A stretch of 32,455 nt of DNA, from the NCBI GenBank assembly GCA_009780915.1, contig WQZD01000031.1, positions 1 to 32,455 of the forward strand, written 5' to 3'. Position 1 is the first letter of the stretch, and the number at the start of each line of letters is the position of its first letter. This DNA is from Propionibacteriaceae bacterium. Its GTDB lineage: Bacteria > Actinomycetota > Actinomycetes > Propionibacteriales > Propionibacteriaceae. The notes below the pieces were generated by a model. The model was not told where the DNA came from and ran no database searches. It saw nothing but the letters and a program-made list of their open reading frames with translations. Positions 3,001-26,978 of the stretch are shown here, piece after piece. The translations under genes and the position numbers were made by a program.

Positions 3001-3680
3001 GGCCTGACCGCCGATCGACGCCGCCACGGACCCTTTGACCACGCGGGCATGGGCCAGGACCCCCGTCAGGTCGTCGGTCACAGCGACCGGGTCGAGATCG
3101 ACGGTGCCCACGTTGGTCGCCGTCACCGTGTAGGTCACCGGAGCGCCGGGACGCACGAGCGAGCCCGAGACCGGGTCCGAGACCTTCACCACATAGAGAC
3201 CAGGCACCCGCGGATCCAGCGTCACCGAGCACATCGGCTCCTCCCCGGTCCGGCATGTGGAGGGGACGTCCATGCCCGGCTCCTCCGGATACGTGCCCGT
3301 GCCGATCACGTGGTTGACGAGCCGGTCCTTCGGCCCCAGATCCATGTTCACGCGTGCCGAGTACGTGAGTGTGACGGTCTCCGCGACGTCGAGGACGCCT
3401 GTCCACGTCAGCGTCGTCCCGACGAGGGACACCGCGCCACGGGGGACGCCGCCTATGACGGCCTTCTCAGAACCCACGACAAAGGTCGCATTGTCGAGCA
3501 CCCCGGAGAGATCGTCGACGACCCGGACCGGATCGAGGCGCACATCGCCGGAGTTGGTCGCTGTGACCGTGTACATCACCAGGTCTCCTGGGCGTACGGT
3601 CGACTCCGGGGAGGCCACCTTGGACACCGTCAACGCCGGATTGGCGGAGACCACCTTCAGATCCACGGACGCCTGAGCCA
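1..3680 (-). repeat. 441-bp tandem coding repeats (147 aa each), at least 8 units plus a partial
   Basis: A landmark coding for ATNVGT recurs with its TT dinucleotide at 17, 458, 899, 1349, 1790, 2231, 2672, 3113 and 3554. Every interval is 441 bp except one of 450 bp, which carries three extra codons near 1070-1100 (additional Gly-Asp-Pro type residues). Units nearest the window edge are the most alike. The unit closest to the N-terminus (about 3200-3680) is the most divergent, as expected for an array that grows or homogenises by recombination. Confidence 0.9.
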
Positions 3681-5255: not shown

Positions 5256-9131
<3,876 letters not shown>

Positions 9132-9178
9132 TCACTTTCTTTTCAAAGTCTTCTTGGGTTCGATACGGACTGAGATGC

Positions 9179-12100
9179 TCAGACTTCTTCAATGGCAAAA
9201 GTGTCCACGCCAGGACGACGCGACAGGTCGAGGCCGAAGTCCTCGGTGTCGCGGAAGTCGTCCTCGGTGTCCTTCAGATCGACGACCTGGCCGTCGGAGG
9301 ACAAGACCTCCACGTTCAGGCACAGGGACTGCATCTCCTTGACCAACACCTTGAACGACTCAGGGATGCCTGGCTCGGGGATGTTCTCGCCCTTGACGAT
9401 GGCTTCGTAGACCTTGACACGGCCCGTGACGTCGTCGGACTTGATGGTCAGCAACTCCTGCAGAGCCCATGCCGCGCCGTACGCCTCCAGGGCCCACACT
9501 TCCATCTCACCGAAGCGCTGGCCGCCGAACTGGGCCTTGCCGCCCAAGGGCTGCTGGGTGATCATGGACACCGGGCCGGTCGACCGCGCGTGGATCTTGT
9601 CGTCGACCAAGTGGTGCAGCTTCAGCATGTACATCACGCCCACGCCGATGGGCTCGGGGTACGGCTCGCCGCTACGACCGTCGAACAACCGTGCCTTGCC
9701 ACCTTCGTTGACCAGTTTGGTGCCGTCGCGGTTGGGAAGACCGTGGGCCAGAAGACCCGTGATCTCGTCCTCGGTCGCGCCGTCGAAGACGGGGGTCGCC
9801 ACACGCTGGTTCGGGTGAGCCTTGTCCAAGCCGATCTCGTGGAGGTGCTTGGTCCACTTCTCGTTCAGGCCGGTGATGTCCCATCCCGATCGGGCGACCC
9901 ATCCCAGATGGGTCTCCAAGACCTGTCCCACGTTCATACGAGACGGCACGCCCATCGGATTGAGGATGATGTCGACCGGGGTGCCGTCCTCCAGGAACGG
10001 CATGTCCTCCTGCGGAAGGATCTTGGAGATGACGCCCTTGTTGCCGTGACGGCCGGCCATCTTGTCACCCACGGAGATCTTGCGCTTCTGGGCCACGTAC
10101 ACCCGCACCATCTGGTTGACGCCAGGCGCGAGCTCGTCGCCCTCCTGCACGTCGAAGACGCGCACGCCGATGACGGTGCCCGACTCGCCGTGGGGGACCT
10201 TCATGGAGGTGTCGCGGACTTCCCGGGCCTTCTCGCCGAAGATGGCGCGCAACAGACGCTCTTCCGGGGTCAACTCGGTCTCGCCCTTGGGGGTGACCTT
10301 GCCGACCAGGATGTCGCCGGTGGTGACCTCGGCGCCGATGCGGATGATGCCGCGCTCGTCGAGGTTGCTCAACGCCTCATCCGAGGAGTTGGGGATATCG
10401 CGGGTGATCTCTTCCGGACCGAGCTTCGTGTCACGGGCGTCGACCTCGTGCTCCTCGATGTGGATCGAGGTGAGCACGTCGTCTTGGACCAGACGCTCGG
10501 ACAGGATGATCGCGTCCTCGTAGTTGAGGCCTTCCCAGGGCATGAACGCCACGAGCAGGTTACGACCCAAGGCCATCTCGCCACGGTCCGTGCAGGCGCC
10601 GTCGGCCAGCGGGGTGCCGATCTCGACGTGCTCGCCTTCGGTGACCAGCGGGCGCTGGTTGATGCAGGTGGCCTGGTTCGAGCGCATGAACTTCTTCAGC
10701 TTGTACGCCGAGTACGTCCCGTCGTCGTTGGCCACCTCGATGATGTCGGCGCTCACCGAGCGGATCGCGCCGGCCTTCTCGGCCAAGGTGACCTCGCCGC
10801 CGTCGACGGCGCCGCGGTACTCCATGCCCGTGCCCACCAAGGGGGACTCGTTACGGATCAAGGGGACCGCCTGGCGCTGCATGTTCGCGCCCATCAGGGC
10901 TCGCGACGCGTCATCGTGCTCGAGGAAGGGGATCAGGGCCGTGGCCACCGACACCATCTGGCGCGGGGACACGTCCATGTACTGCACCTCAGCCGGGGGG
11001 ACCTGGTCGACGTCGCCGTTCTTGATGCGCACCAAGACGCGCTCCTCCAAGAACTTGCCCTTGTCGTCGACCTTGGCGTTGGCCTGGGCGATGATGTAGC
11101 GGTCTTCCTCGTCGGCCGTCAGGTAGTCCACCTGGTCGGTGACGTGGCCGTCCACGCACTTGCGGTACGGGGTCTCGATGAAACCGAAGGCGTTAACACG
11201 CGCGAAGGAGGCCAAGGAGCCGATGAGGCCGATGTTCGGGCCTTCAGGGGTCTCGATGGGGCACATACGTCCGTAGTGCGAGGGGTGCACGTCTCGCACC
11301 TCCATGCCGGCGCGGTCACGGCTCAAGCCGCCGGGGCCCAACGCGGACAGACGGCGCTTGTGCGTGAGCACGGCCACCGGGTTGGTCTGGTCCATGAACT
11401 GCGAGGACTGGCTGGTGCCGAAGAACTCGCGCAGGGCGGCCACGACGGGGCGGATGTTGATCAGGGTCTGAGGGGTGATGGCCTCGATGTCCTGGGTCGT
11501 CATCCGGTCGCGGACCACGCGCTCCATGCGGGACAGGCCGGTGCGGAGCTGATTCTGGATCAGTTCGCCGGACGTGCGCAGGCGGCGGTTGCCGAAGTGG
11601 TCGATGTCATCGGTCTCGATCAGCAGGCCGTCGAGCTCGGTGCGGCCCTCGTGCATGGCGCAGACGTACTTGATGGCGGCGGTGATGTCCTCGCGGGTCA
11701 GCACCTGAGCGTCCATGGGCAGCGACAGGCCGAGCTTCTTGTTGATCTTGTACCGGCCGACCTTGGCCAGGTCGTACCTCTTGTGGTTGAAGTAGTACCC
11801 GTCGATCAACTGCTTGGCCGCATCGCGTGCCGGGGGCTCGCCCGGACGCAGCTTGCGGTAGATGTCGAGCAAGGCCTCGTCCTCGGTGTGGACGTGGTCC
11901 TTCTCCAGGGTCATGCGCATCGACTCGAACTCGGAGAACTCCCGCAGGATCTCCTCTTCCGTCCAGCCCAGTGCCTTGAGGAAGACGGTGACCGACTGCT
12001 TGCGCTTGCGGTCGAGGCGCACCCCGACGGTGTCGCGCTTGTCGATCTCGAACTCCAGCCAGGCGCCACGCGAGGGGATCACCTTGGTGGTGAAGATGTC

Positions 12101-12646
12101 CTTGTCAGACGTCTTGTCGGGGGTGACTTCGAAGTACACGCCCGGGGAACGCACCAGCTGCGACACCACGACACGCTGCGTGCCGTTGATGATGAAGGTC
12201 GCGTCAGGAGTCATGAGGGGGAAATCACCCATGAAGACCGTCTGCTCTTTGAGCTCTCCGGTCTCATTGTTCATGAACTCGGCCTTGACGTACAGCGGCG
12301 CGCAATACGTCGCGTCACGCTCAAGGCATTCGGAAATCGTGTACTTCGCGTCCTCGAACCGGGGTTCGCGGAAGGACAGCGACATCATCCCGCCGAAGTC
12401 CTCAATGGGTGAAATCTCCTCGAAGACCTCATCGAGCCCAGATTTGGTGTTGACATCCGTTCGACCCTGTTCCAGGGCAGCGGCCGTCTTGGCTCTCCAT
12501 GAATCGGAGCCGATCAGCCATTGAAAGGAGTCTTTCTGCAAATCGAGGAGATTAGGTACTTCCAGAGGCTCATGAATTTTCGCAAACGAAACTCGATCGG
12601 TACCAGAAATAAAGTGGTTCTTCTTCGCGCTACGCAAGGCGGCCAA
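9179..12646 (-). CDS. rpoB: DNA-directed RNA polymerase subunit beta (TTG start)
   Basis: The protein is collinear with actinobacterial RpoB over its whole length and is about 1155 residues from the start chosen here. I place the start at the TTG at 12646 because GGAAGGA precedes it by 6 nt. The open frame runs further upstream to a GTG at 12721, but its VLEGPI residues are simply the translated Shine-Dalgarno region, as in mycobacterial rpoB. The rifampicin pocket (E. coli 507-533) reads [14 protein letters not shown] ... [10 protein letters not shown]: Asp516, His526 and Ser531 are conserved, but position 511 is Ser instead of Leu (codon 11405-11407). [19 protein letters not shown] and the C-terminal [24 protein letters not shown] motif are intact. 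It forms the catalytic core with RpoC. Transcription probably starts near 12804, giving a leader of about 160 nt. Confidence 0.98.
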
Positions 12647-12810
12647 GATCGGTCCTTCCAGAACTCGCCAGGTGGAATGGCACGACTTTCCCCGTGTATC
12701 GAAAAACACGACAAAAGACACGCTAAGGCAAAATACAACAATAGCCTAGGGAAGCACGGAATGCAACCCCTGCCACGACATCAAGCGGACGACATCGCCT
12801 CGCAAACTCC

Positions 12811-12839
12811 AGTGTAGCGCGAGATTGGCAGTTTGTCCC
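12811..12839 (-). promoter_or_regulatory. Candidate rpoB promoter
   Basis: On the minus strand GGGACA (12839-12834), a 17-nt spacer and TACACT (12816-12811) form a sigma-70-type promoter. The -10 hexamer and its following G match those seen before rplJ and tRNA-Trp. The -35 element is only partly consensus. Confidence 0.55.
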
Positions 12840-12906
12840 TCCTAATTGCCGCACCATTCACCGAAGGGACACAGGATCGTACGAGCGGGAGTCCTGAGGA
12901 TGGATA

Positions 12907-12935
12907 TTGACGTGATGTCTCTTTAATGTGATACT
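12907..12935 (+). promoter_or_regulatory. Promoter of the secreted-protein cassette
   Basis: TTGACG (12907-12912), a 17-nt spacer and GATACT (12930-12935) preceded by TGT make a strong promoter with an extended -10. Transcription would start near 12942. That places the GTG at 12928 inside the promoter, so it cannot be the translation start, which supports the ATG at 12986. Confidence 0.65.
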
Positions 12936-12985
12936 GGGAATGCACGCGGTAATGGCCGTGTGTTTCTTCAAGGAAAGGGAAATCA

Positions 12986-13956
12986 ATGAAGATGAAAAAA
13001 TTCATAGGGGGGGCGTAACTCTTATCGCCAGCCTCCTCACCCTGACCTGTGCTCCGACCGCCTCGGCAGACGACACAGATCTAGTGACGAATGACACAGC
13101 TGCCCTCATTGCCGAGGTTGCTCCAGAGGCTGGCGGTGTCGTGATCCCCGACACCAGTACAACTGGCATGTCTGCGGAAGTGGCCGATGTGAGCGTCACT
13201 GTCCCCACCGACCCGGCCGAGTCCATCACGATCGCAAGCACCAACACAGACAGGACTCAAGCCACGCTTGGGGCGCCAGTCGTTCATGTCTCACTGCCTC
13301 CAGAGATCAACGTGCACAAGGGGCATGTGGCTAAAGATGGCACCATCGTCTACCAAATGTCAGCAAAACACGGAGCCCACAGTGCGGTTCAGGTTCTCGA
13401 TGATGGCTCAGTCTGTTTTGAGACGGTTATGGATTCTGCTCAAAGTCCCCATCGGTTCACGTACAGTTTCGCGGGTGCGACCCCCGTGCTACAGGCTGAC
13501 GGCTCTGTCACCCTGGTCCAGACGCTGCGGGGCTCAGCAGGATTCATTCAAGCAACCGTTGGACACATTGAAGCCGCATGGGCCGTGGACGCATCTGGCC
13601 GGGCAGTCAAGACCAGCTATCAAGTGACTGGCCGAGGACTTGTTCAAGTTGTCACCACCGACAAGCACACCGTCTTCCCCGTTGTTGCCGACCCCAAAGT
13701 CTCTCTCTCATGGTCAGGACTCCTCATTCAATTCAATCGCTCAGAGACTAACAAGGTGAGTTGGGGTGGAGCCGTGGCGACTGGCGTCCTCGCAGCACTG
13801 GTGGGCGTCCCACTGGCAGGGGCCTTCGTCGCGCTAGTCTATGGAGGAGGGTCTGCTTATGCTGGTTACGTCTACGGTCAAGGAAAGTGCCTATCCGCGA
13901 CCTTCAACGGATTCATGTGGTACCTCGGTTCATACACTGGAGGTTATTGTAAATGA
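12986..13956 (+). CDS. Secreted protein of unknown function, frame broken at a G7 tract in the signal peptide (phase-variable or frameshifted)
   Basis: I do not recognise a named family. The best start is the ATG at 12986, with GGAAAGGGA just upstream and a good promoter at 12907. As written, that frame stops at TAA after ten codons. One more G in the run of seven at 13007-13013 restores a textbook Sec signal peptide, starting MKMKKFIGGGVTLIASLL and ending APTASA before Asp-Asp, and joins it to a 310-residue open frame ending at 13956. The mature part has an acidic Thr/Ala/Val-rich start, a beta-rich middle, the phrase FPVVADPKVS, then a Gly/Ala-rich hydrophobic stretch (about 13760-13890) and a C-terminal tail with two Cys (GKC ... 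GGYCK). An A6 run at 12995-13000 is a second possible slip site. G+C is lower than in the neighbours. The next gene overlaps its stop codon, suggesting a working pair. A sequencing error is the main alternative. Confidence 0.7.
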
Positions 13957-14213
13957 TTCTTATGTTCTTCATTGCAGCTGTGGGCAGCGCCATGGTCGCG
14001 TCACTGGTATGCGTGTTCAGGATTCGCCACGAATGGAAGAGCTTCTGGATCGTCTTGTGCGTCTGGGTTGCGATGAACATACTCTGCTTCGTCCTGAACT
14101 GGACTGATAACCCTGCCTGGTGGGTGTCTGTGTACTCGTTCATCGCATGCGTGCTCTGCGGGACGGTCGTGGAACACGTCACACGTACACGGGCGGCGAA
14201 ACAGTCCACCTGA
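13953..14213 (+). CDS. Small three-helix membrane protein, partner of the preceding secreted protein
   Basis: The 86-residue product is almost entirely transmembrane: helices at about 1-22, 30-50 and 56-76, with basic loops (RIRHEWK; TRTRAAKQST) that predict how it sits in the membrane. Its ATG overlaps the TGA of the secreted-protein gene (ATGA), and GGAGG lies 9 nt upstream, so the two genes are probably translationally coupled. I recognise no family. A small polytopic membrane protein coupled to an exported protein with a hydrophobic Gly-rich end could be an immunity or export partner, but that is inference from arrangement only. Codon use and G+C match the preceding gene rather than the ribosomal genes around it. 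Confidence 0.75.
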   Translation: MILMFFIAAVGSAMVASLVCVFRIRHEWKSFWIVLCVWVAMNILCFVLNWTDNPAWWVSVYSFIACVLCGTVVEHVTRTRAAKQST

Positions 14214-14284
14214 GGATGCGGCACTTGGGTTGGCTGATGGGTGGCATCAGGACGGCGATCACCGACTGCACTCACCCATCAACG

Positions 14285-14316
14285 ACGAATGGCCACCCCG
14301 AAGGGTGGCCATTCGT
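14285..14316. terminator. Bidirectional terminator between the cassette and rplL
   Basis: A perfect 14-bp inverted repeat (ACGAATGGCCACCC / GGGTGGCCATTCGT) encloses a 4-nt loop, CGAA on the plus strand and TTCG on the minus strand. It sits between convergent genes, 71 nt after the membrane-protein stop and 20 nt after the rplL stop. T-tracts are poor on both sides. Confidence 0.8.
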
Positions 14317-14336
14317 GACGTTGTTGGGTCAACCGG

Positions 14337-14726
14337 TCACTTGACAGAGACGGTGGCGCCAGCGGCTTCGAGCTGTTCCTTAGCCTTGGTCGCGGTCTCC
14401 TTGTTGACCTTCTCCAGGACGACCTTGGGGGCTTCCTCGACGAGATCCTTGGCTTCCTTGAGGCCGAGGCTGGTCAGAGCGCGCACCTCCTTGATGACCT
14501 GGATCTTCTTGTCGCCGCCGGACTCGAGCACGACGTCGAATTCGGACTGCTCTTCCACCTCTTCGGCCGGGGCAGCGCCACCGGCAGCGGGAGCGGCAGC
14601 CATCGCCACGGGGGCGGCAGCGGTCACACCGAACGTGTCTTCGAAGAGCTTCACGAACTCAGAGAGCTCGATGAGCGTCATTTCCTTGAAAGCGTCGAGG
14701 AGTTCCTCGTTGCTGAGCTTCGCCAT
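14337..14726 (-). CDS. rplL: 50S ribosomal protein L7/L12
   Basis: The 129-residue product has the L7/L12 layout: an N-terminal dimerisation helix region ([20 protein letters not shown]), an Ala/Pro-rich hinge at about 36-57 and the conserved C-terminal domain ([21 protein letters not shown] ... [14 protein letters not shown]) that recruits translation factors. The start is the ATG at 14726, 9 nt after GGAAGG; an ATG three codons upstream directly abuts the Shine-Dalgarno and is unlikely. It lies 14 nt behind rplJ and shares its transcript; L7/L12 dimers bind L10 to form the ribosomal stalk. Confidence 0.98.
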
Positions 14727-14740
14727 GATTGGCATCCTTC

Positions 14741-15379
14741 CTATTCTGTGGCAGCTTCTGCCGTGGTTTCTTCGGCAGCATCTGCTGCTGGTGTTGAGGC
14801 GGGTGCCTCGGGCGCCGCATCAGCGGCGGGAGCACTGGCGCCAGTCCCCGCGATGAGCGAGGGGTTGGCTTGAGCCGCGTCCTGGAGAGCACCCATCGCG
14901 CGAGCCGCCTGGTTGAGGGGCGCGGCGAACAGGTACACAGCCTTGGACAGGTTGGCGTTCATCGCGCCAGCCATCTTGGCAAGCAGAACCTCGCGGGATT
15001 CCAGATCCGCGAGCTTCTTCACGGTGTCGGCGTCAAGGACTCGTCCGTCCATGTAGCCGCCCTTGATGACCAGTGCAGGGTGATCCTTCGCGAAAGCCCT
15101 GATGCCCTTCGCCACGGTGGCCACGTCTCCAGTGATGAAGGCGATGGCCGTGGGGCCGGTCAGCTGGTCATCGAGACCATCGATCCCAGCCTCGCGAGCA
15201 GCGATGGCAGTCAGAGTGTTTTTCGTGACGGAGTAGGTGGCGTCGTCCCCGAGGGAACGGCGCAGATTCTTGAGCGCCTTGACCGTGAGGCCACGGTACT
15301 CAGTCAGGACAGCGGCCGCCGACGAACTGAACTTCTCGCTCAGCTCCTTGACGGTAGCTTCCTTGTCTGGCCTCGCCAT
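14741..15379 (-). CDS. rplJ: 50S ribosomal protein L10
   Basis: The 212-residue protein begins [17 protein letters not shown] and contains the L10 signatures [21 protein letters not shown] and [13 protein letters not shown], followed by a helical segment that binds L7/L12. The C-terminus is an Ala/Pro/Glu-rich tail of about 40 residues (from about 172), which accounts for its length above the usual 165-180. The ATG at 15379 is preceded at 6 nt by GGAG; the open frame continues upstream into the leader but has no ribosome-binding site there. The gene starts the rplJ-rplL unit with its own promoter and a long leader, where L10 or the L10/L12 complex probably feeds back on expression, as is known for this family. 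Confidence 0.97.
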
Positions 15380-15430
15380 GAGGTCTCCTTCCTGCTTGGT
15401 GCCAAAGGCTGTCGATAATCGGCTCGGGCA

Positions 15431-15466
15431 AAGAAAAAGCCCTGAACTCGCACAGGAGGTCAGGGC
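15431..15466 (-). promoter_or_regulatory. Terminator-like hairpin in the rplJ leader (L10-leader attenuator candidate)
   Basis: On the minus strand GCCCTGA ... TCAGGGC pairs around an inner CTC/GAG helix (15466-15439) and is followed at once by TTTTTCTT, a classical intrinsic terminator. It lies 51 nt before the rplJ start and about 80 nt after the predicted rplJ transcription start, inside the leader, so it can act as an attenuator. It would also stop readthrough from the upstream protease gene. Confidence 0.6.
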
Positions 15467-15556
15467 GTACGAAACGCTATGTCTCACCTGCGCGGGCCAA
15501 TCCCAGGGATTCATCGGTCAGTCCGAGCTGACAACCGGCGGTCTTCGGCTCCATAC

Positions 15557-15585
15557 AGTGTACGCGAGTGGTCGAGGACTACCAA
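15557..15585 (-). promoter_or_regulatory. rplJ-rplL promoter
   Basis: TTGGTA (15585-15580), a 17-nt spacer and TACACT (15562-15557) on the minus strand are close to consensus. The predicted transcription start near 15549 gives a leader of about 170 nt before rplJ. Confidence 0.65.
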
Positions 15586-15646
15586 ATTCTCATCGTGTGG
15601 GAACCCAGCTCGATGGCGACGGGCGGAGGCCCAGACGACACCGGGC

Positions 15647-16990
15647 CTAGTTCTGCGAGATCAGCGCGGCGTACTGGCGCAGGCCCGAATTGATCAGGCG
15701 CACGATGAAGATCCACGCGATCACCGTCAGCCCCGCCAGCAGGATGTAGGCCCAGGCGTCGGCGTTCACCTCGAAAGCGACGAAGTCCCAGAGGAAGTGC
15801 AAGACGAAGGGGACGCAGAACAGGCCGGCGAATTTCTTCCACTGGAGGGTGCGCACCCTGACCTGCGAGGAACCAGGGGCCTGTGCCAGCATGATGGCCG
15901 CGCCGCTGATGGCGGTCCACACGACATGGTTGCCGACGGACAGGACGCCGCGCACGAACAGGGTGTACTCCAGATCCCCGGCGACCCAGGCGGAGGTGCC
16001 GTACCCCATCGTCTCGAAGACCCCGAAGCCCGTGCCGACGATGGCGCCGACCAAGAGGCCGTTGGAGATCAGGCATCCGTACAGCTTCCGTACAAGCACG
16101 AAGACGACCACAGCTTTGGCCAACTCTTCCGTGAACCCGATGAAGAGGGCCTGCACGCCGGAGGACAGCACCCCGGGCAGTCCGGCGGTTTGGAAGAGAT
16201 CCGTGGCGGCCGAGACGATGAACAGCAGCAGGATCGACATCGCGCCGCCGATGAAGAAGATGCGCACCACGTCGAAGAAACTCACGTTCTTCGCCTGATT
16301 GAACTCCCAGAAGAAGATCATCACGGTCGCGGGCACGACCAGCGCGCCGGTGAAGATCACGCCGGGCACCACGTTGCCGCTCGTGTCCCGGAAGATCGCC
16401 ATGCACAGCCACAGGAGGAGGTACGCGGCGAGCAGCACCGCGAAGACCCGGGAGTACAGCCACGGCAGTCGCCATTGACGGTCGTACTTCGCCGCTTCCG
16501 TCCCGGCGTACATCAAAGCGTCCATGTCCGAGCGCGAGTGCCGCTTGAGGGTGTCCCGGAACAAGTCGCGGAATCGAATGATCGCCTCCCCCTCGAATCC
16601 GGTGATCGAGTCGAAGGCCTTCTGCACCCCGGACACTCCCATCTGGATCATCTGCGGCGTCGAGATCGCGGGGTTGGCGGGTTGGGGCGTCGGGTCCGCT
16701 GCGAGAGACGCGGGATGGATCACCGGAGCCGGGGCGAACGACGGATTTCCCGGGGCGAACGACGGAGTTCCCTGGGCGGGAGGTCGCTGAGGCGCCCGAA
16801 CGGACTGCACCGCCGCGGTCGTCTGAGGGTCGCCCCGCTCGACGAGCCAGTCCAACAACGCTGGGTACGCCTGGGGATGCAGGGCCACCCCCGACCACAG
16901 ATCCGGGTATGCCTGCGCGATCTGCGCCAGGGTCTGTGCGGTGGTACGCGGGTCAGCCAACGCAGCGAGAGCACCAGCATGATCGATCAT
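15647..16990 (-). CDS. PrsW-family intramembrane protease with N-terminal variant leucine-rich-repeat domain
   Basis: The 447-residue protein starts at the ATG at 16990, 6 nt after GGAG; an ATG two codons upstream abuts the Shine-Dalgarno. Residues about 11-56 (DPRTTAQTLAQIAQAYPDLW ... LLDWLVERGDP) match the short variant leucine-rich-repeat module of actinobacterial membrane proteins. A Pro/Ala linker (about 66-115) follows, then about eight transmembrane helices from residue 180. The PrsW/CAAX-like catalytic motifs are present: Glu-Glu at 288-289 (FTEELAK), GFGVFE with Glu326, His355 (GNHVVW) and His398 (HFLWD). PrsW-type enzymes cleave membrane proteins such as anti-sigma factors; the substrate here is unknown. 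It sits between rplA and rplJ, with a terminator on each side, so it is probably not part of the ribosomal transcripts. The protease call is firm by motif; activity is inferred. Confidence 0.85.
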   Translation of the reverse strand: MIDHAGALAALADPRTTAQTLAQIAQAYPDLWSGVALHPQAYPALLDWLVERGDPQTTAAVQSVRAPQRPPAQGTPSFAPGNPSFAPAPVIHPASLAADPTPQPANPAISTPQMIQMGVSGVQKAFDSITGFEGEAIIRFRDLFRDTLKRHSRSDMDALMYAGTEAAKYDRQWRLPWLYSRVFAVLLAAYLLLWLCMAIFRDTSGNVVPGVIFTGALVVPATVMIFFWEFNQAKNVSFFDVVRIFFIGGAMSILLLFIVSAATDLFQTAGLPGVLSSGVQALFIGFTEELAKAVVVFVLVRKLYGCLISNGLLVGAIVGTGFGVFETMGYGTSAWVAGDLEYTLFVRGVLSVGNHVVWTAISGAAIMLAQAPGSSQVRVRTLQWKKFAGLFCVPFVLHFLWDFVAFEVNADAWAYILLAGLTVIAWIFIVRLINSGLRQYAALISQN

Positions 16991-17112
16991 GAACATCTCC
17001 TAGACATGGGACACGACAGATATGAAACGAGAAAACGCCTGTCATCCTACCTTAAACGGCCCTGTGCGGAGATGCCCCCGCCTCGTCCGATGACGAGCTC
17101 CCCTATGAGAAA

Positions 17113-17151
17113 CGCACCTGCCCCCGGCCAGACGGCTCGGGGGCAGGTGCG
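17113..17151 (-). terminator. rplK-rplA terminator
   Basis: A perfect 14-bp stem (CGCACCTGCCCCCG / CGGGGGCAGGTGCG) with an 11-nt loop lies 18 nt after the rplA stop. On the minus strand it is followed by TTTCTCAT. Confidence 0.85.
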
Positions 17152-17169
17152 GTGTTCGTTATTGTCCGA

Positions 17170-17871
17170 TCAGACCTCGGCGGCAGCACGGCGCTGGGGA
17201 TCGATCGAGATCCCCGGACCCATGGTCGACGACATCGTGATCTTACGCACGTAGCGTCCCTTGGAGGTGCTGGGCTTCAGACGCAGCACCTCGTCGAGGG
17301 CGGCGGTCAGGTTCTCATTCAGCTGCTCGTCGGTGAACGACGCCTTGCCGATGATGAAGCACAGGTTCGCCTGACGGTCGGCGCGGAACTCGATCTTGCC
17401 GCCCTTGATGTCGGTGACAGCCTTGGCCACATCCATGGTCACGGTGCCGGTCTTCGGGTTGGGCATCAAGCCACGCGGGCCGAGGACACGACCCAGCTTG
17501 CCGACCTTGCCCATCAGATCAGGGGTGGCGACGACCGCGTCGAAGTCCAGGTAGCCGCCGGCCACCTTGTCGATCAACTCGTCGGCGCCGACCTCGTCGG
17601 CGCCAGCCGCTTCGGCCGCGCTCGCGTTCTCACCGGTGGCGAAGACGAGGACCCTTGCCGTCTTGCCTGTGCCGTGAGGGAGGTTGACCGTGCCGCGCAC
17701 CATCTGGTCCGCCTTACGGGGGTCGATGCCGAGACGCATGGCGACCTCGATGGTCTCGTCGAACTTGGCCGACGCCATCTGCTTGACGAGCCCGATGGCT
17801 TCGATGTTGGTGTGCAACTTGTTGGGATCGCGTTGGGCATCTGCCGCGCGATAAGCTTTGCTACGCTTCAT
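17170..17871 (-). CDS. rplA: 50S ribosomal protein L1
   Basis: The 233-residue product has standard L1 length. Visible signatures are the [13 protein letters not shown] strand-turn early in the protein and the family motif [15 protein letters not shown] in the second half, with the C-terminal ending [23 protein letters not shown]1 binds 23S rRNA at the E-site stalk and, in many bacteria, represses its own operon mRNA. The ATG at 17871 follows a purine-rich AGAAAGGAACC segment. It lies 88 nt downstream of rplK and closes that transcript at the hairpin at 17113. Confidence 0.98.
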
Positions 17872-17959
17872 TGCTGGTTCCTTTCTATGTGTGTCATCTC
17901 GTGTGATGACTGTTCCAGATGTGGTGCGGGGTGCGTTGCCCCTTCCACGGTGTCTCAGG

Positions 17960-18388
17960 TCAGGAGACGGTGACGCCCATGGAGCGCGCCGATCCCTCGA
18001 CGATCTTCATGGCAGCCTCGACGTCGTTCGCGTTGAGGTCCGGCATCTTGGTGACCGCGATCTCACGAACCTGGTCCTTCGTGATGGAAGCGACCTTGGT
18101 CTTCAGAGGGTTGGCGGAACCTGACTTGATTCCAGCCGCCTTCTTGATCAGCTCGGCGGCAGGGGGGGTCTTCGTGACGAACGTGAAGGTTCGATCCTCG
18201 AAGATGGTGATCTCGACGGGGATCACGGTGCCACGCATGGCTTCGGTGGCAGCGTTGTACTGCTTGCAGAAGTCCATGATGTTGACGCCGTGCGGGCCGA
18301 GAGCGGTACCGACCGGAGGGGCCGGGGTGGCGGAGCCAGCGTTCAAGGCAACCTTGACGATAGCCGCGACCTTCTTTTTGCTGGGCAT
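17960..18388 (-). CDS. rplK: 50S ribosomal protein L11
   Basis: The 142-residue protein has the usual L11 length and motifs: [20 protein letters not shown] near the N-terminus, [23 protein letters not shown] in the middle and the C-terminal rRNA-binding signature [24 protein letters not shown]11 lies at the GTPase-associated centre and is needed for RelA-type stringent signalling; the sequence shows nothing unusual. The ATG at 18388 is preceded by AAAAAGGA. It lies 116 nt after nusG, and the gap contains a small hairpin. Confidence 0.98.
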
Positions 18389-18435
18389 TCGGGTCCTTTT
18401 TCAGCTAATCCCCCGCGGGCTTTCCACGAGGGGTT

Positions 18436-18452
18436 CCACGGACGGGCCGTGG
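18436..18452 (-). promoter_or_regulatory. Small hairpin in the nusG-rplK gap, possible leader structure
   Basis: CCACGG / CCGTGG forms a perfect 6-bp stem with a 5-nt loop, 48 nt before rplK. No T-tract follows. It may be part of an L11/L1 mRNA leader or an RNA processing site; function is unproven. Confidence 0.3.
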
Positions 18453-18504
18453 TTGGCCGAACGCGATTCAGTCGTGTCCGGCCGTCCCTTATTCAGGGCT
18501 CGGA

Positions 18505-19311
18505 TCAGATCTTTTGGACCTGGTCCAGAGTCAAATCGACCGGTGTGTCGCGTCCCATGAACTCCAGGGTCGCCTTCAGCCGGGACGTGTGTGTGTTGAT
18601 CTCGGTGATCGTCGCATGGACGCCCGTGAAGGGGCCGTCGGTCAGCATGACCGAGTCCCCGACCTGGAAGTCGACCAGCTCGACCTTCTTCTTGCGTGCG
18701 GGCTTGCCGCCGTCCTTCTCGGACTTCAGCGCGATCATCGACGGCAGGAGCATCTCCACGACCTCGTCCAGGCTCAACGGCACTGGATCGTTGGCGTGCC
18801 CGACGAAACCCGTCACAGAGGGGGTGTGGCGCACCGCCGACCACGAGTCGTCGGTGAGGTCCATGCGGACGAGCACATAGCCCGGGAGCACGGTCCTGGT
18901 GACCGTCTTCTTCGTGCCGTTGCGGATCTCCACCACGTCTTCGGTGGGCACCACCGTCTCGAAGATGAAATCTTCCATGTTCAAGGTCTTGACGCGAGAG
19001 TCCAAGTTCTGCTTGACCCTCTTCTCCATGCCCGAGTACGTGTGGACGACGTACCAGTCACCGATCTTGGATTCCAGATCAGCACGGATCTCGGCGCGAA
19101 TCGCGTCAGCGTCGGAGTCAGCAGCGAGCTGCTCCTCCTCGGCCTCCTCGTCTTCGTCCATGCCGAAACCGAGTTGGATCTCGGTCTCTTCCTCCGTGTC
19201 GTCGTCTGTACCGCCGAGATCCAGGTTGATGTCGAGTTCTTCTTCGACAGGCGCGTCGCTGAGATCGAGATGGATTTCAGTGTCGTCAAAAATAGTTTCT
19301 TCGTCAGCCAT
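18505..19311 (-). CDS. nusG: Transcription termination/antitermination factor NusG with acidic N-terminal extension
   Basis: The 268-residue protein has a highly acidic N-terminal extension (about residues 1-75, rich in Asp/Glu), then the NusG N-terminal domain beginning GDWYVVHTYSGMEKRVKQNL, which binds the beta' clamp. It ends with a KOW domain (about 215-268: FQVGDSVMLTDGPFTGVHATI) that contacts Rho or ribosomal protein S10 in characterised homologues. The acidic extension is typical of actinobacterial NusG. The ATG at 19311 has GAGGAGGA just upstream and lies 11 nt after secE, so the two are co-transcribed. Confidence 0.97.
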   Translation of the reverse strand: MADEETIFDDTEIHLDLSDAPVEEELDINLDLGGTDDDTEEETEIQLGFGMDEDEEAEEEQLAADSDADAIRAEIRADLESKIGDWYVVHTYSGMEKRVKQNLDSRVKTLNMEDFIFETVVPTEDVVEIRNGTKKTVTRTVLPGYVLVRMDLTDDSWSAVRHTPSVTGFVGHANDPVPLSLDEVVEMLLPSMIALKSEKDGGKPARKKKVELVDFQVGDSVMLTDGPFTGVHATITEINTHTSRLKATLEFMGRDTPVDLTLDQVQKI

Positions 19312-19901: not shown

Positions 19902-20005
19902 TGAACTTCCTTCTTCTTCGAGCCATACGGCCGTTAGCGTCGGGTACGGCGATCAACCACACCCGCATTAACCCCTGACTCGGCAGGAGCCCCTGCCTTC
20001 CCTAG

Positions 20006-20078
20006 CAGGGCAAGAGGGACTCGAACCCCCAACCTGCGGTTTTGGAGACCGCTGCTCTACCAATTGAGCCATTGCCCT
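20006..20078 (-). tRNA. tRNA-Trp (CCA anticodon)
   Basis: The 73-nt cloverleaf folds fully on the minus strand: acceptor AGGGCAA/TTGCCCT with discriminator G, a D-arm with GGTAGAGC, an anticodon stem GCGGT/ACCGC around CTCCAAA (anticodon CCA), and a T-arm with GGTTCGAGTCC. The 3' CCA is not encoded. It is the first gene of the secE-nusG transcript and is divergent from the trp operon. Confidence 0.97.
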
Positions 20079-20207: not shown

Positions 20208-20258
20208 ATGAGACGACGCCGCCGACCGCACGTTTCTGGGAGATACTGGCTCCCATGA
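20208..20258 (+). CDS. Possible 16-codon leader peptide overlapping the trpE start
   Basis: The short frame encodes MRRRRRPHVSGRYWLP, with a Trp codon three codons before the stop. Its TGA overlaps the trpE ATG (ATGA). Within it, GGGAG (20238-20242) can pair with CTCCC (20250-20254) just before the trpE start, hiding the only Shine-Dalgarno-like sequence for trpE. Ribosomes translating or stalling here could therefore control trpE. It has no strong ribosome-binding site and only one Trp codon, so it is not a classical trp attenuator leader. Confidence 0.35.
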   Translation: MRRRRRPHVSGRYWLP

Positions 20259-21742
20259 TCTCATCGCAGCTTGTCATCAGCCCATCGATGGTCCGGGAGT
20301 GGGCACGCTCCTTCCGTACCGCGCCGGTGGCCGTCCGCCTTACCGGGCTGACACGCACCCCGACCGAGGTCTTCCTCGCCTGCCGACACGTCAGTCGCCA
20401 TTGCTTCATCCTGGAGAGCATGGAGGACAGCGCAGATTCGGGCCGCTACACCTTCATCGGACTCGACCCGAGTGTGGAGCTCACCTGCAAAGATGGCCTG
20501 CTCACCATACGCGGCCAGGAGGAGGTCACCACCCGAGTCGCGTCCCCGGGCCCGGCCATCTCCTCGCTCCTCGAGGCCCATGCCGGCCCGCGTACCGATC
20601 TGCTCCCTCCCTTCACGGGCGGCTTGGCCGGGTACTTCAGCTTCGACTACGTCCAGTACGCCGAACCGAGCCTGCGCCTCGACGCCGACGACGAGGAGGG
20701 ATTCCGTGACGTCGATCTGATGTACTTCGACACAGTCATCGCCTTCGACCATCTGGCCGACGCGGTGTACCTGATCGTCACCATCCCCCTGGTCGGCCGC
20801 GACGCGTGGGAGGTCGAGTACGACCGTGCCGTGGGCGTCCTGGACGACCTGACCCGCCTGGTCGCCGAGGGCCCGACCGCGACCATGGCGCCCCTGAGGA
20901 CCACCGGCGCCTTCGACTCCCTGTTCACCCCGACCCAGTTCGAGGAGGTCGTCGACCGCGCCAAGGAGCACATCCGCGACGGAGACGTCTTCCAGGTGGT
21001 CGTCTCCAACCGGCTGCGCGCCCCCGCCGAGGGCAGCCTCTTCGAGACGTACCAGCTCCTGAGGCGGACCAACTCCAGCCCGTACATGTTCTACTTCTCC
21101 TCCGACGACCTGGAGATGGCCGGGGCCAGCCCGGAGACCCTGGTCAAGCTCACCGGCGACACCGTGACGACCTTCCCGCTCGCCGGCACCCGTCCGCGCG
21201 GGGCGACCGAGGCGGAGGACGCCCTCCTCGAGGCCGAACTGCTGGCCGACGAGAAGGAACTCGCCGAACACACCATGCTGGTGGACTTGGGACGCAACGA
21301 CATCGGCAAGATCTCCCGCGTGGGCAGCGTCGATGTGGCGACGTGGATGAGCGTCCTACGCTTCTCGCACGTCATGCACATCGGATCGACGGTGACGGGC
21401 ACGACCCGCCCGCGCACCACCGCCATGGACGCCATCGAGGCCGTCCTCCCGGCGGGCACGCTCTCCGGGGCGCCGAAGATCCGCGCCTGCCAGATCCTCA
21501 ACGACCTCGAAGGGGTCAAGCGGGGGGTGTACGGCGGCGCTATCGGCTACATCTCCACGACCGGCGACATGGACACCTGCATCGCCATCCGCCTGGCCTA
21601 CAAAAAGGGCGGGACCGTGTACGTGCGAGCCGGGGCCGGGATCGTGGCCGACTCCGACCCACGACGGGAATACGAGGAGACCATCAACAAGATGAGGGCC
21701 GTGGTCGACGCCCTGACCGATCACGAGAGGAACCCCGCATGA
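20255..21742 (+). CDS. trpE: Anthranilate synthase component I
   Basis: The 495-residue protein converts chorismate, with ammonia delivered by TrpG, to anthranilate, the first step of tryptophan synthesis. The N-terminal domain carries the Trp-feedback element, here ILES (about residue 51-54). The chorismate-binding domain follows (about 225-485) with FQVVVSNRL, ASPETLVKL, FPLAGTRPRG, MLVDLGRNDIG, LPAGTLSGAPK and the C-terminal AGAGIVADSDPRREYEET. The start is the ATG at 20255. GGGAG lies 12 nt away and may be sequestered; an ATG at 20289 is an alternative without better support. It overlaps trpG by 4 nt (ATGA) and opens the trp operon. Confidence 0.96.
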   Translation: MISSQLVISPSMVREWARSFRTAPVAVRLTGLTRTPTEVFLACRHVSRHCFILESMEDSADSGRYTFIGLDPSVELTCKDGLLTIRGQEEVTTRVASPGPAISSLLEAHAGPRTDLLPPFTGGLAGYFSFDYVQYAEPSLRLDADDEEGFRDVDLMYFDTVIAFDHLADAVYLIVTIPLVGRDAWEVEYDRAVGVLDDLTRLVAEGPTATMAPLRTTGAFDSLFTPTQFEEVVDRAKEHIRDGDVFQVVVSNRLRAPAEGSLFETYQLLRRTNSSPYMFYFSSDDLEMAGASPETLVKLTGDTVTTFPLAGTRPRGATEAEDALLEAELLADEKELAEHTMLVDLGRNDIGKISRVGSVDVATWMSVLRFSHVMHIGSTVTGTTRPRTTAMDAIEAVLPAGTLSGAPKIRACQILNDLEGVKRGVYGGAIGYISTTGDMDTCIAIRLAYKKGGTVYVRAGAGIVADSDPRREYEETINKMRAVVDALTDHERNPA

Positions 21743-22305
21743 TCGCGATCATCGACAACTACGACTCCTTCACGTACAACCTCTACCAGATGATCGCCCA
21801 GATCGACCCGGACGTGGAGGTGTTCCGCAACGACGCCCTGACCGTGCCTGGCCTGGCCGCCCTGCGCCCGTCGCACATCGTCTTGTCCCCCGGCCCCGGC
21901 TACCCCGCCCAGGCGGGGATCTGCGTCGACGTGGTCCGCGACCTGGGCGGATCCGTCCCCGTGCTCGGGGTCTGCCTGGGGCATCAGGCCATCTGCGAGG
22001 CGTACGGCGCCCGGATCGTCCACGCGAGGACCCCCATGCACGGCAAGTCCAGCATGGTCGACGTGGAGGAGGACCCCCTCTTCACGGGACTGCCCCGGCG
22101 CGTCCAGGTGGCCCGCTACCACTCCCTCGCCGCCGACGCCGCGTCCATGCCCGCCGACCTCCGCGTGACCGCCGTGGCCGACGACGGCGAGATCCAGGCC
22201 GTCCACCACCGGGACCTGCCCGTCTTCGGAGTCCAGTTCCACCCCGAATCCGTCCTCACCCCGCAGGGAAGCCGGATCCTCGCCAACTTCATCGCCACCC
22301 GGTGA
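21739..22305 (+). CDS. trpG: Anthranilate synthase component II (glutamine amidotransferase)
   Basis: The 188-residue protein is a class I glutamine amidotransferase that supplies ammonia to TrpE. The catalytic triad is visible: Cys79 in LGVCLGHQAI, and His168 and Glu170 in VQFHPES; the N-terminal IDNYDSFTYNL and the oxyanion-loop SPGPGYP motifs are intact. Length fits a stand-alone TrpG/PabA. The ATG at 21739 overlaps the trpE stop, with GAGAGGA 7 nt upstream, giving translational coupling. A PabA-type dual role in folate synthesis is possible, but the context says tryptophan. Confidence 0.96.
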   Translation: MIAIIDNYDSFTYNLYQMIAQIDPDVEVFRNDALTVPGLAALRPSHIVLSPGPGYPAQAGICVDVVRDLGGSVPVLGVCLGHQAICEAYGARIVHARTPMHGKSSMVDVEEDPLFTGLPRRVQVARYHSLAADAASMPADLRVTAVADDGEIQAVHHRDLPVFGVQFHPESVLTPQGSRILANFIATR

Positions 22306-22447: not shown

Positions 22448-23476
22448 GTGCCAGAGCCGATGCGAATTTCCGAAGCCATCCGACGCGCTGTGTCGCGTCA
22501 AGAACTCTCGTACGACCTGGCTGAGGACGTGATGGACGAGATCATGAACGGATCGGCCACCCAGATCCAGATGGCCGCGTACCTGACGGCGATGAGCCTG
22601 AAGGGCGAGACGATCACCGAGATCACCGCGTCGGCCGCCGGGATGCGCAAACACTGCGTGCGCCTGCTCAACCAGATGCCTGTGTTGGAGATCGTCGGCA
22701 CCGGGGGCGACCACTCCAACTCCTTCAACATCTCCACCACCTCGGCCCTCGTGGTCTCCGCCGCCGGCATCCCGGTGGCCAAGCACGGCAATCGGGCGGC
22801 CTCGTCGCGCTCCGGGGCGGCCGACGTCCTCGAAGCCCTCGGCGTGAAGATCGACATCCCGCCGCAGAGGAGCCTGGACATCCTCAACAGCATCGGCCTG
22901 TGTTTCCTGTACGCCCAGAACTACCACCTGGCCATGAAGTACGTCGCCCCGGTTCGCCGCGAGCTGGGGATCCGCACGATCTTCAACATCCTCGGCCCCC
23001 TGGTCAACCCGGCCGGGGCGAGCATGGAACTGCTGGGGGTGTACGACGAGGACCTCGTGGAGCCCCTGGCGAGAGTGCTGCACAACCTCGGGGTCGACCA
23101 CGCCCTGGTCGTGTACGGGCTCGACGGGTTGGACGAGATCTCCATGAGCTCCCCCACCACCGTGTGCGAACTGCGGGACGGGGACTTCCACGTCTACACG
23201 CTCGATCCGCGCCACCACGGCTTCCAGCTGTGCCAGAAATCCGACCTCGTGGGCGGCGATCCGCAGCACAACGCGGCCATCACCCGCTCGATCCTGGGCG
23301 GCGGGCAAGGGCCGAAGACCGACGCCGTCCTCATGAACTCGGCCGCCGCGATCTACCTGGCCCGCGACGACCTGAGCATGGACGACGCCGTGGAGATCGC
23401 CCGTGACACCTTGTCCTCCGGCAAGGCCCTGGCCCAGCTCGACCAGTTCATCGCCTTGTCGAACACCGACCTGTGA
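22448..23476 (+). CDS. trpD: Anthranilate phosphoribosyltransferase
   Basis: The enzyme joins anthranilate to PRPP. The 342-residue length from the GTG at 22448 is normal; AAGGAG lies 5 nt before it, and the open frame upstream to 22319 has no such signal. The family motifs are visible: an N-terminal helical bundle ([16 protein letters not shown]), the PRPP loop [36 protein letters not shown], and [11 protein letters not shown]. It follows trpG after an unusually wide gap for this operon, which may hold an internal promoter. It precedes the fused gene by 11 nt. Confidence 0.97.
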
Positions 23477-23487
23477 AGGAGGAGGAG

Positions 23488-26163
23488 ATGACAATCCTCG
23501 ACATCCTGGCGGCCGACGCGAGAGCGCGCGTGGACGCCGACTCCGCCAGCGTCTCCCTGGCGCAGATGCGGGCACAGGCGCGTGATCTTCCCACCCTGAT
23601 CGGCCATCCCTTCGAGAGGGCGGTGGGCGCCCCGGGACTGAGTTTCATCTGCGAGGTCAAGAAAGCGTCCCCGTCGAGAGGGGTGATCTCGTCGGACTAC
23701 CCGTACCTCGACATCGCGGTCGACTACGAGGTGGGCGGAGCAGCCGCCATCTCCGTCCTGACCGAACCCGGGCACTTCCTGGGCTCGGACTCCCACCTGC
23801 GGGCCATCGCGGACCGCGTCACCGTGCCCGTGTTGCGCAAGGACTTCACGGTCGACGAGTACCAGATCTACCAGGCCCGCACCCTGGGCGCGTCGGCCGT
23901 GCTGCTCATCTGCTCGCTGCTGTCCGACACCCAGTTGTCGGAGTACATGGAACTGGCGCAGAGCCTGGGCATGTGCGTCCTCACGGAGACCCACGACGAG
24001 GCGGACATCGAGCGGGCGCTGACGGCGGGGGCTCGCATCATCGGGGTGAACACTCGCAATCTGCACGACTTCTCCGTGGACCCCACGACGGGGACCAGCA
24101 TGCGCCACCTCGTGCCCGCGGACCGGTTGTTCGTGTGGGAGTCGGGTGTGAGGTCCCACGAGGACATCGCCGACGTCGTCCGGGCGGGCGCCGACGCCGT
24201 CCTGATGGGCGAGGCTCTGATGAAGGTCCCCAACCGGGCGGCCCTGCTCCAGAAGCTGCGCAGGACGGCGCGCCACGTCCAGATCGAGGACCGTCACACG
24301 TCGAGCGACGCTCCTGACGTGCCACCCGTGCGGGGCACGCGGGGGCCCGGGGTCAAGATCTGCGGGATCACCCGCCACGAGGACGCCGAGGCCCTGAACC
24401 AGTCGCTGCCCCAGTACGCCGGGTTCGTCTTCCATCCCGCCAGCCGACGCCACGTCGACCTGGAGACGGCCCTGGACCTGCGGTCCCTCCTGGACCCACG
24501 CATCCTCACGGTCGGCGTCTTCCAAGACGCCCCCGTCGCCGACGTGGTGGAAGCCGTGGAAGCCAGCGCGGTCTCCATGGCCCAACTGCACGGTGCGGCG
24601 GACGGCGAGTACGTGCTGGCCTTGCGTGCCGCCGCCCCCCACACTCCCATCATCAAAGCCGTGGCCGCCCTCGACGCCGGGTCCATCGTGGACGCCGCCG
24701 GCGTGGGTGCGGACTACCTCCTCGTGGACTCCGCGTCCCCCGGTTCCGGGGAGGGTTTCGACTGGGCGTGGCTGGAGGAGGCACGCCTGCTGACCGACCT
24801 TCCCCCGATCTTCTTGGCGGGCGGGCTCACCCCCGACACGGTGGGCGAGGCCTGCCGCCTGGGAGTCCACGCGGTGGACGTCAGCAGCGGCGTGGAGTCC
24901 GACGGGCTCAAGGACCCCGCCAAGATCGCGGCCTTCATCGCCGCCGCCCGCGGCGAGACACGCCAGGAACGCAAGCCGAGTCCGGGGCGGTTCGGAGTCC
25001 ACGGGGGCCAGTACGTCCCCGAGACCCTCATGCACGCGGTCCACGCCCTCGACGAGGCGTACACCCACTACAAGGACGACCCGGACTTCCGGGCGGACCT
25101 CGACACGCTCCTGCGCGAGTACGCCGGGCGTCCGTCCCTGCTGTCGCTCGCGGCCAACATGACCGCCGATCTGGGCGGCGCCAAGGTCTACCTCAAGCGT
25201 GAAGACCTCAACCACACGGGGTCGCACAAGATCAACAACGTCCTCGGGCAATGCCTGCTGGCCCTACGCATGGGCAAGACTCGCGTGATCGCCGAGACCG
25301 GCGCCGGGCAGCACGGGGTGGCCACCGCCACCGCGGCCGCCCTCCTCGGGCTTCAGTGCGAGATCTTCATGGGGCTGGAGGACACCCGTCGCCAGGCCCT
25401 GAACGTCTACCGCATGGAGTTGCTGGGCGCGACCGTGCATCCGGTGACCTCGGGCACGCAGACCTTGAAGGACGCCGTCAACGAGACCATGCGGGAATGG
25501 ACCACCCGCCCCGACGACACGCACTACGTGCTGGGATCGGTCATGGGACCCCACCCCTTCCCCACGATGGTCCGCGACTTCCAATGCGTCATCGGACGCG
25601 AGGCGCGTGCGCAGATCCTCGCCGCCGAGGGGAAGCTCCCAGCGGCGGTCGTGGCCTGCGTGGGCGGGGGCAGCAACGCGATCGGCATCTTCCATCCCTT
25701 CCTCGCCGACGAGTCGGTGGCCCTCATCGGCTGCGAGGCGGCCGGGCTCGGGGCGGACACGCCGCGCACGGCGGCGACCCTCACCACCGGGTCGCTGGGG
25801 ATCTTCCACGGCATGAAGTCGTACTTCTGCCAAGACGAGGTCGGCCAGATCGCGCCGGTGTACTCGATCTCGGCGGGCCTGGACTATCCGGGCGTGGGGC
25901 CCGAGCACGCCTGGCTGCACGACACCGGGCGGGCGACCTACGTCCCCGTCACCGACGCCGAGGCGGTCGACGCGTTCGAGTACTTGGCCCGCACCGAGGG
26001 GATCATCTGCGCCATCGAGTCCGCGCACGCCCTGGCCCATGCCCGCCGGATCGTGCCCGCGATGAGTCCCGACGACTCGGTGATCGTGTGCCTGTCGGGA
26101 CGCGGCGACAAAGACGTGGCGGCCATCGCCGCCTACCGAGGCCGACAGGTGGAGGAGGACTGA
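23488..26163 (+). CDS. Trifunctional TrpC-TrpF-TrpB fusion: indole-3-glycerol phosphate synthase, PRA isomerase, tryptophan synthase beta
   Basis: One uninterrupted 891-residue frame holds three complete enzymes. Residues 1-265 are TrpC ([12 protein letters not shown] with Lys58, LRKDF with Lys118, GVNTRNL with Asn188, WESGV with Glu218). A linker of about 20 residues follows. Residues 288-490 are TrpF (KICGIT with Cys292, LLVDS with Asp414, FLAGGLTP). Residues 498-891 are TrpB ([13 protein letters not shown], the PLP lysine Lys581 in [27 protein letters not shown]). Together they isomerise PRA, form indole-glycerol phosphate and make tryptophan with TrpA. The start is the ATG at 23488 behind GGAGG; a GTG at 23473 lies before the Shine-Dalgarno. 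All catalytic residues I can check are present, so each domain should be active. Bifunctional TrpC-TrpF is well known; the triple form is rarer. Confidence 0.96.
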
Positions 26164-26165
26164 CC

Positions 26166-26978
26166 ATGAACAACCGGTTGCGTGACGCATTCGACTCCCC
26201 GGGCTTCATCGCCTTCCTGACCGGCGGAGATCCCACGATCGAGGACACCCGCCGCTTCATCGGGGTCCTGGCCCGAGCCGGGGCGAGCCTGGTCGAGATC
26301 GGGATCCCCTTCTCGGACCCCATCGCCGAGGGGCCCGTGATCGAGCAGGCCAGCGCCCGCGCCCTCGACGCCGGAGCGACGCCGGAGAAGATCTTCGGCC
26401 TCGTGGACCTCCTGCGCACCGAGGACCACGTGAGCATCCCCCTCGCCCTGATGACCTATCTCAACCCCGTCCATCACTACGGCTACGCCGCGTTCTTCGC
26501 CCGTGCCGCACAGGTCGGCGTCGACGCGATCATCATCCCCGACCTGCCGTGGGAAGAGCAGGGGGAGGTACGTGACGTGGCGACCCGTTTCGGCGTGGCG
26601 CTGATCTCGATGATCGCGCCCACCTCGGCCACGCGCGTGCGCCAGATCGCCCGCGAGGCCACAGGGTTCATCTACCTGGTCAGTTCGTTGGGAGTCACCG
26701 GGGTCCGCTCGTCGATCACCACCGACATCGCCTCGATCGTCGCCGAGATCCGGGCTGCGACCGACGTCCCCGTGGCGGTCGGCTTCGGCATCTCGACCCC
26801 CGAGCAGGCCCGTGAGATGGCGGCCCTCGCGGACGGGGTGATCGTGGGCAGCGCCATCGTCTCGCTGATCGCCAGCCACGGCGCCCAGGCAGACCAGGCC
26901 ATCGACGACTATGCGCGTCTCATGGTCGCCGCCGTGAACGAGGCGGCGCCATCCCATCGGCCGGGGACTCGCCCCTAG
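26166..26978 (+). CDS. trpA: Tryptophan synthase alpha subunit
   Basis: The 270-residue TIM barrel splits indole-glycerol phosphate and passes indole to the TrpB domain encoded just upstream. Motifs present: FLTGGDPT, EIGIPFSDP with the catalytic Glu44 (Glu49 of E. coli), IIIPDLPWEEQ, YLVSSLGVTG and VGFGIS. The second catalytic acid is Glu55 in AEGP where E. coli has Asp60 in ADGP. This AEGP form, together with VTGVRSSI and the EKIFGLV helix, resembles a TrpA subgroup I associate with Firmicutes and some Actinobacteria. The ATG at 26166 follows the fused gene after 2 nt and uses its terminal GGAGGAGGA as ribosome-binding site. It ends the operon, sharing a CTAG with the convergent neighbour. 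Confidence 0.96.
   Translation: MNNRLRDAFDSPGFIAFLTGGDPTIEDTRRFIGVLARAGASLVEIGIPFSDPIAEGPVIEQASARALDAGATPEKIFGLVDLLRTEDHVSIPLALMTYLNPVHHYGYAAFFARAAQVGVDAIIIPDLPWEEQGEVRDVATRFGVALISMIAPTSATRVRQIAREATGFIYLVSSLGVTGVRSSITTDIASIVAEIRAATDVPVAVGFGISTPEQAREMAALADGVIVGSAIVSLIASHGAQADQAIDDYARLMVAAVNEAAPSHRPGTRP

Follow-up and report, generated by a model that had tools for sequence, protein, structure and literature searches.

A single-chain TrpC-TrpF-TrpB gene in the trp operon of a Propionibacteriaceae bacterium

Fusions of adjacent trp genes are represented by curated NCBIfam models of the C-F, F-B and C-B types. The bifunctional TrpCF enzyme (PRK09427; PDB 1pii and 7etx) carries the TrpC domain before TrpF and has no TrpB domain. 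In the TrpF-TrpB fusion (PRK13803) TrpF precedes TrpB and TrpC is missing, and the TrpC-TrpB fusion (PRK13802) appears, from its name and its length of 695 positions, to lack a full TrpF. F-B fusions are described as rare in bacteria and archaea in the available part of PMC11237513, and the five-domain Trp enzyme of Euglena is called the most extreme exception in the available part of PMC2395257. Like the protein studied here, the Euglena enzyme combines several trp activities in one chain, but it is eukaryotic and has five domains. No description of a bacterial C-F-B chain was found in the open-licence literature, as judged by titles or the beginnings of abstracts. Two papers considered as possible reports were rejected: in the accessible portion of PMC12452182 trpC-trpF-trpB is part of a list of operon genes, and in that of PMC9745158 trpCFBDS is a gene list in which trpCF and trpB are separate. 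The words fusion, fused, trpC and trpB are absent from PMC5404923.

The window analysed in this work is a stretch of 32,455 nucleotides, contig C31 of a Propionibacteriaceae genome (G000; 2.78 Mb, 45 contigs, 99.4% complete). It contains a trpCFB fusion gene (23488..26163, + strand), a single open frame running from the ATG at 23488 to the TGA at 26161-26163, with no internal stop and a product of 891 aa. A ribosome-binding site, AGGAGGAGG, is located at 23477-23485, between the trpD stop and the trpCFB ATG. The TrpC (IGPS) domain occupies aa 7-256 (23506..24255, +; PF00218 246 bits, cut-off 27; NF001377 287 bits, cut-off 260), the TrpF (PRAI) domain aa 289-485 (24352..24942, +; PF00697 136 bits, cut-off 22.7) and the TrpB domain aa 500-882 (24985..26133, +; NCBIfam TIGR00263 624 bits, cut-off 392), with the PLP-enzyme fold PALP (Pfam) at aa 555-871. 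The C-F linker (aa 257-288; 24256..24351, +) is the gap between two domain matches in a CF fusion common to relatives, and the F-B linker (aa 486-499; 24943..24984, +) would mark where one gene once stopped and the next began, although neither signal is left. The three domains share a high GC3 (0.92, 0.915 and 0.93), which drops to 0.75 in the 12-codon F-B linker.

Lys58, Lys118, Cys292, Asp414 and Lys581 are all present in the fusion protein, together with further residues of the same motifs (E56, E167, N188, S219, E603 and S870). We take E56, K58, K118, E167, N188 and S219 to have catalytic roles in IGPS. C292 and D414, which are invariant across 36 aligned rows, presumably form the catalytic Cys/Asp pair of PRAI, and K581, situated within HTGSHK of the TrpB domain, is presumably the PLP lysine. 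Score and residues agreed in assigning the protein to TrpB (TIGR00263), IGPS (PF00218; NF001377) and PRAI (PF00697). The frame, the Pfam and NCBIfam scores and the residue check thus confirmed the initial annotation, which had described one continuous C-F-B frame with complete domains and with the five residues named first above.

The chain falls under the cut-offs of all three curated fusion models. It shares the C-F order of TrpCF and scores 345.4 bits against the cut-off of 380; PDB 7etx, which bears the name TrpCF, aligns with aa 46-471 without a break, and PDB 1pii aligns in two stretches, the better one at aa 2-250. With the TrpF-TrpB fusion it has the F-B order in common (705.3 bits, cut-off 819), and with the TrpC-TrpB fusion both end domains and their order (647.4 bits, cut-off 1386). 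trpCFB joins known enzymes in one more way of fusing adjacent trp genes.

The gene is part of an operon in the order trpE, trpG, trpD, trpCFB, trpA. The match of trpE (anthranilate synthase component I; 20255..21742, +) to TIGR00564, 500 bits, is under the cut-off of 517.7, and its PF00425 and PF04715 matches are over cut-off. trpG (glutamine amidotransferase component; 21739..22305, +), whose start was placed by the ATGA overlap with trpE, scores 209 bits for TIGR00566 (cut-off 121). trpD (anthranilate phosphoribosyltransferase; 22448..23476, +; TIGR01245 391 bits, cut-off 199) was scanned from 22319, and the GTG at 22448 was chosen as its start from the AAGGAG upstream. Tryptophan synthase alpha chain is encoded by a separate gene, trpA (26166..26978, +; TIGR00262 266 bits, cut-off 102), directly after trpCFB.

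IGPS, PRAI and TrpB were each found over cut-off once in the source genome, every time inside trpCFB. Outside this gene neither IGPS nor PRAI gave a match at E <= 0.001, and TrpB gave none over cut-off, only a weak TrpB-like match of 33 bits. Separate TrpC, TrpF and TrpB proteins, which according to the initial annotation would speak against the fused enzyme, are therefore not seen over cut-off in an assembly that is 99.4% complete. The genome also encodes HisF and a PriA-type enzyme, P0003 (L006, 1441-2238, - strand), which exceeds the cut-off of the bifunctional HisA/TrpF model (321.2 against 306.45 bits). PriA is, according to the available text of PMC13055916, exclusive to Actinomycetota and arose after the loss of trpF, so that the enzyme points to an actinobacterium as the probable source. 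Two PRAI activities may be present in the source organism, that of the PriA-type enzyme and that of the TrpF domain of the fusion. Because the PriA-type enzyme scores over the HisA/TrpF cut-off, the TrpF domain of the fusion may not be needed.

In the genus set of 19 genomes the 5' end of trpB was visible in 14. trpB is in the CF frame in one of these 14, the window, and seven of the remaining 13 have a CF frame ending at a four-base ATGA that overlaps the trpB start. The genus relatives have CF already fused, followed by a separate trpB. The C-F fusion of the window is ordinary, and the new step, on comparison with the relatives, is the F-B join. Five genomes were left out of the junction count: G173 and G174 (trpB interrupted by the contig end), G188 and G189 (where a search for classical trpB gave only a TrpB with 51% identity) and G190, rejected as a junction case as its CF frame is open to the contig end and TrpB begins at the end of another contig, so that the junction is unseen. 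In G179, G184, G186 and G187 trpB is on a different contig from the C or F matches. In the last three of these (L024, L049, L051 and L054) the trpB contig is apart from both C and F, and their TrpB branches off elsewhere in the tree.

In the CF/B relatives, seven of 13 with the four-base overlap, gain or loss of one base would generally be enough to bring the two frames together, and one could suppose that CF and trpB are truly separate in the window too and were joined by an assembly or sequencing error. The junction of the window is of another kind. Between 24880 and 25020 every frame is free of TAA, TAG and TGA, ATG and TTG are absent as well, and the sole GTG is at 24892; from aa 441 to 520 the fusion is stop-free in every frame, and the two other frames remain open to 25160 and 25200. 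One error cannot yield two proper genes from such a sequence, and a single-base error cannot account for the F-B join. An artefact, a larger misassembly included, is highly improbable here, even though the fusion was seen in a single assembly of one species and the other C-F-B case (see below) is open to artefact doubt.

The GTG at 24892 is in frame, 31 codons before the GRFG motif, and TrpB alone could in principle start there. It might therefore be argued that the fused chain is made and that TrpB is also released alone, by this internal start or by proteolysis, leaving the working enzymes largely separate. Retention of a trpB start site inside the second C-F-B fusion would fit with such release; in the window, however, GTG 24892 has no visible ribosome-binding site ahead of it, and we consider this alternative unlikely. 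The preferred reading, which on the sequence evidence is very probably correct, is that of a fixed fusion, within a compact trp operon, between an older trpCF fusion gene and the trpB that followed it, giving a trifunctional protein with a locked CF:B ratio whose TrpB dimer would work with TrpA. The CF and B genes of the ancestor would have overlapped by ATGA and been translationally coupled, and an indel together with loss of the start and stop would have produced one chain.

The second C-F-B chain was found in genome G1008, from the class that includes Veillonella tobetsuensis (NCBI taxonomy: Negativicutes). It is 867 aa long (L251:5948-8551, - strand), lies in an operon E-G-D-CFB-A and is 56% identical to the window protein over 3-890. 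The two share the three domains and the operon order, but differ in origin and in the retained trpB start. In the joined-domain tree, in which the rows of both chains were flagged for unusual composition, G1008 groups with nine CF/B rows of its own class (support 100), and a single clade for the two C-F-B chains was rejected (p-AU 1.4e-5). The G1008 fusion is of independent origin, on its own CF background. Its junction retains AAAGG, the ribosome site of trpB, together with ATGA, and has stops in the other frames; the trpB start signals kept there are absent from the window junction. The G1008 fusion could be a one-base event, either real or an error, and this organism may still make TrpB alone. 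In four genomes of the same class (L185-L188) CF and trpB are in the same frame with one stop codon between them, one substitution away from fusion.

How common such chains are was assessed in wider samples (gene borders are marked by slashes). A contig scan found at least 592 stretches, and none of the 80 loci kept from it carries a C-F-B chain: 61 are C/F/B, 11 C/FB, three CF/B, three F/B and two C/B. The 11 C/FB loci have the F-B fusion type and, unlike the window, a separate gene for C. The loci read in two further samples were picked for high scores or long frames, not at random: among 55 from the class of V. tobetsuensis (330-genome sample) there are 42 C/F/B, 11 CF/B, one F/B and one C-F-B, and among 45 loci in 36 genomes from the order of an Eggerthellaceae genome (297-genome sample) 34 C/F/B, seven CF/B, two C/FB, two F/B and no C-F-B chain. 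Among actinobacteria (samples of 396 and 394 genomes) a whole-length, stop-free match was found, among the matches listed, in the window only, which is a weak test of fusion because matches can split at domain borders and at most two candidates were scored per genome (DNA-level checks: L069-L097, L178-L184 and L231-L244). One candidate from these checks, G462 (L071), matched 62-879 with three stops and was rejected; C and B are in separate frames and F was not found. Open-frame length did not serve as a fusion detector either. TrpB matches with frames of 850-1144 aa from the class of Veillonella and the Eggerthellaceae order had suggested many C-F-B chains. At the DNA level, among the loci read, G1008 and the window alone had C, F and B in one frame, the remaining candidates being C/F/B, CF/B, C/FB or without a visible part. 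The C-F-B fusion is rare in what was sampled, in keeping with the initial annotation, which had called it uncommon in bacteria, and one further chain was found.

In the TrpB tree (172 rows) the window and its genus relatives are placed beside Bacillota-type TrpB and apart from six other family members; the tree was built quickly, many of its forks are weak, it carries a long-branch warning, and three rows of the genus are placed elsewhere in it. The placement suggests that the fusion has a TrpB of the Bacillota type, which sets it apart from those six family members. This type, the PriA-type enzyme and the fact that only the F-B join is new had escaped the initial annotation. In a joined C+F+B domain tree (44 rows, also quick) the window groups with G190, G176 and G177 (SH-aLRT 95), and these together with G180 and G163 group with it at SH-aLRT 99. 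The nearest CF/B row to the window is G180, with 71% identity. In the family PRAI occurs in 40 of 198 genomes against 182 of 198 for IGPS, a distribution that fits with the trp operon having been gained.

In known tryptophan synthases TrpB dimerises and binds TrpA. The fusion protein is predicted to have PRAI and IGPS activities and that of the TrpB half-reaction, to dimerise through its TrpB domain and to bind the separate TrpA, and each domain most likely works like its free counterpart. Two CF units would then be present in every alpha-beta-beta-alpha complex, with CF:B fixed at 1:1; the two barrel copies per TrpB dimer follow from the stoichiometry of one chain. Only the known TrpA/TrpB indole channel is expected in this complex.

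A more far-reaching role, substrate channelling through the four reactions that lead from PRA to tryptophan, had been suggested as a possibility in the initial annotation. With the barrels and TrpB in one chain and TrpA bound to TrpB, local concentrations would be raised, and in a single particle with TrpA the two CF units beside the TrpA/TrpB pairs might pass indole-glycerol phosphate directly to TrpA, as in a four-step assembly line. The barrels of E. coli TrpCF, however, are not known to channel between them, and trpB is kept in its own frame at most loci examined. Moreover, in the available part of PMC4755613 co-evolution signal is absent beyond the TrpA-TrpB and TrpE-TrpG pairs, including for TrpC-TrpF, although this is still compatible with proximity effects. 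The channelling proposal found no support, and we regard it as quite unlikely; the direct transfer to TrpA in a single particle is improbable to the same degree. The fixed fusion probably has little effect on fitness, or else helps to balance expression or to keep the enzymes close, and probably just ties the amounts of the three enzymes together. Relatives show what the ancestral arrangement of two genes was, and an independent, possibly early-stage, fusion exists in another phylum. CF/B with the ATGA overlap, CFB with the trpB start kept and CFB with all signals lost form a natural series suited to asking whether fusion gives a kinetic gain or only fixes stoichiometry.

Upstream of the trp operon, and divergent from it, lie a tRNA-Trp gene (CCA; 20005..20078, - strand), a locus marker that is not part of the enzyme, and rpoC, rpoB, rplJ and nusG (5256-19311, - strand). 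At the start of the window, a 1337-aa open frame (55-4068, + strand) has no Pfam match and may be a non-coding frame in GC-rich DNA. The tRNA-Trp was not found in the upstream stretches, some of them short, of G180, G181, G183, G185, G195 and G163. It is beside nusG and divergent to the trp genes in five of the 11 relatives whose upstream stretch was examined (G175, G176, G177, G178 and G190). In two of these, G177 (L304) and G190 (L310), trpE and trpG were not found within the stretches examined, in contrast to the window and G178, and trpD directly follows tRNA-Trp.
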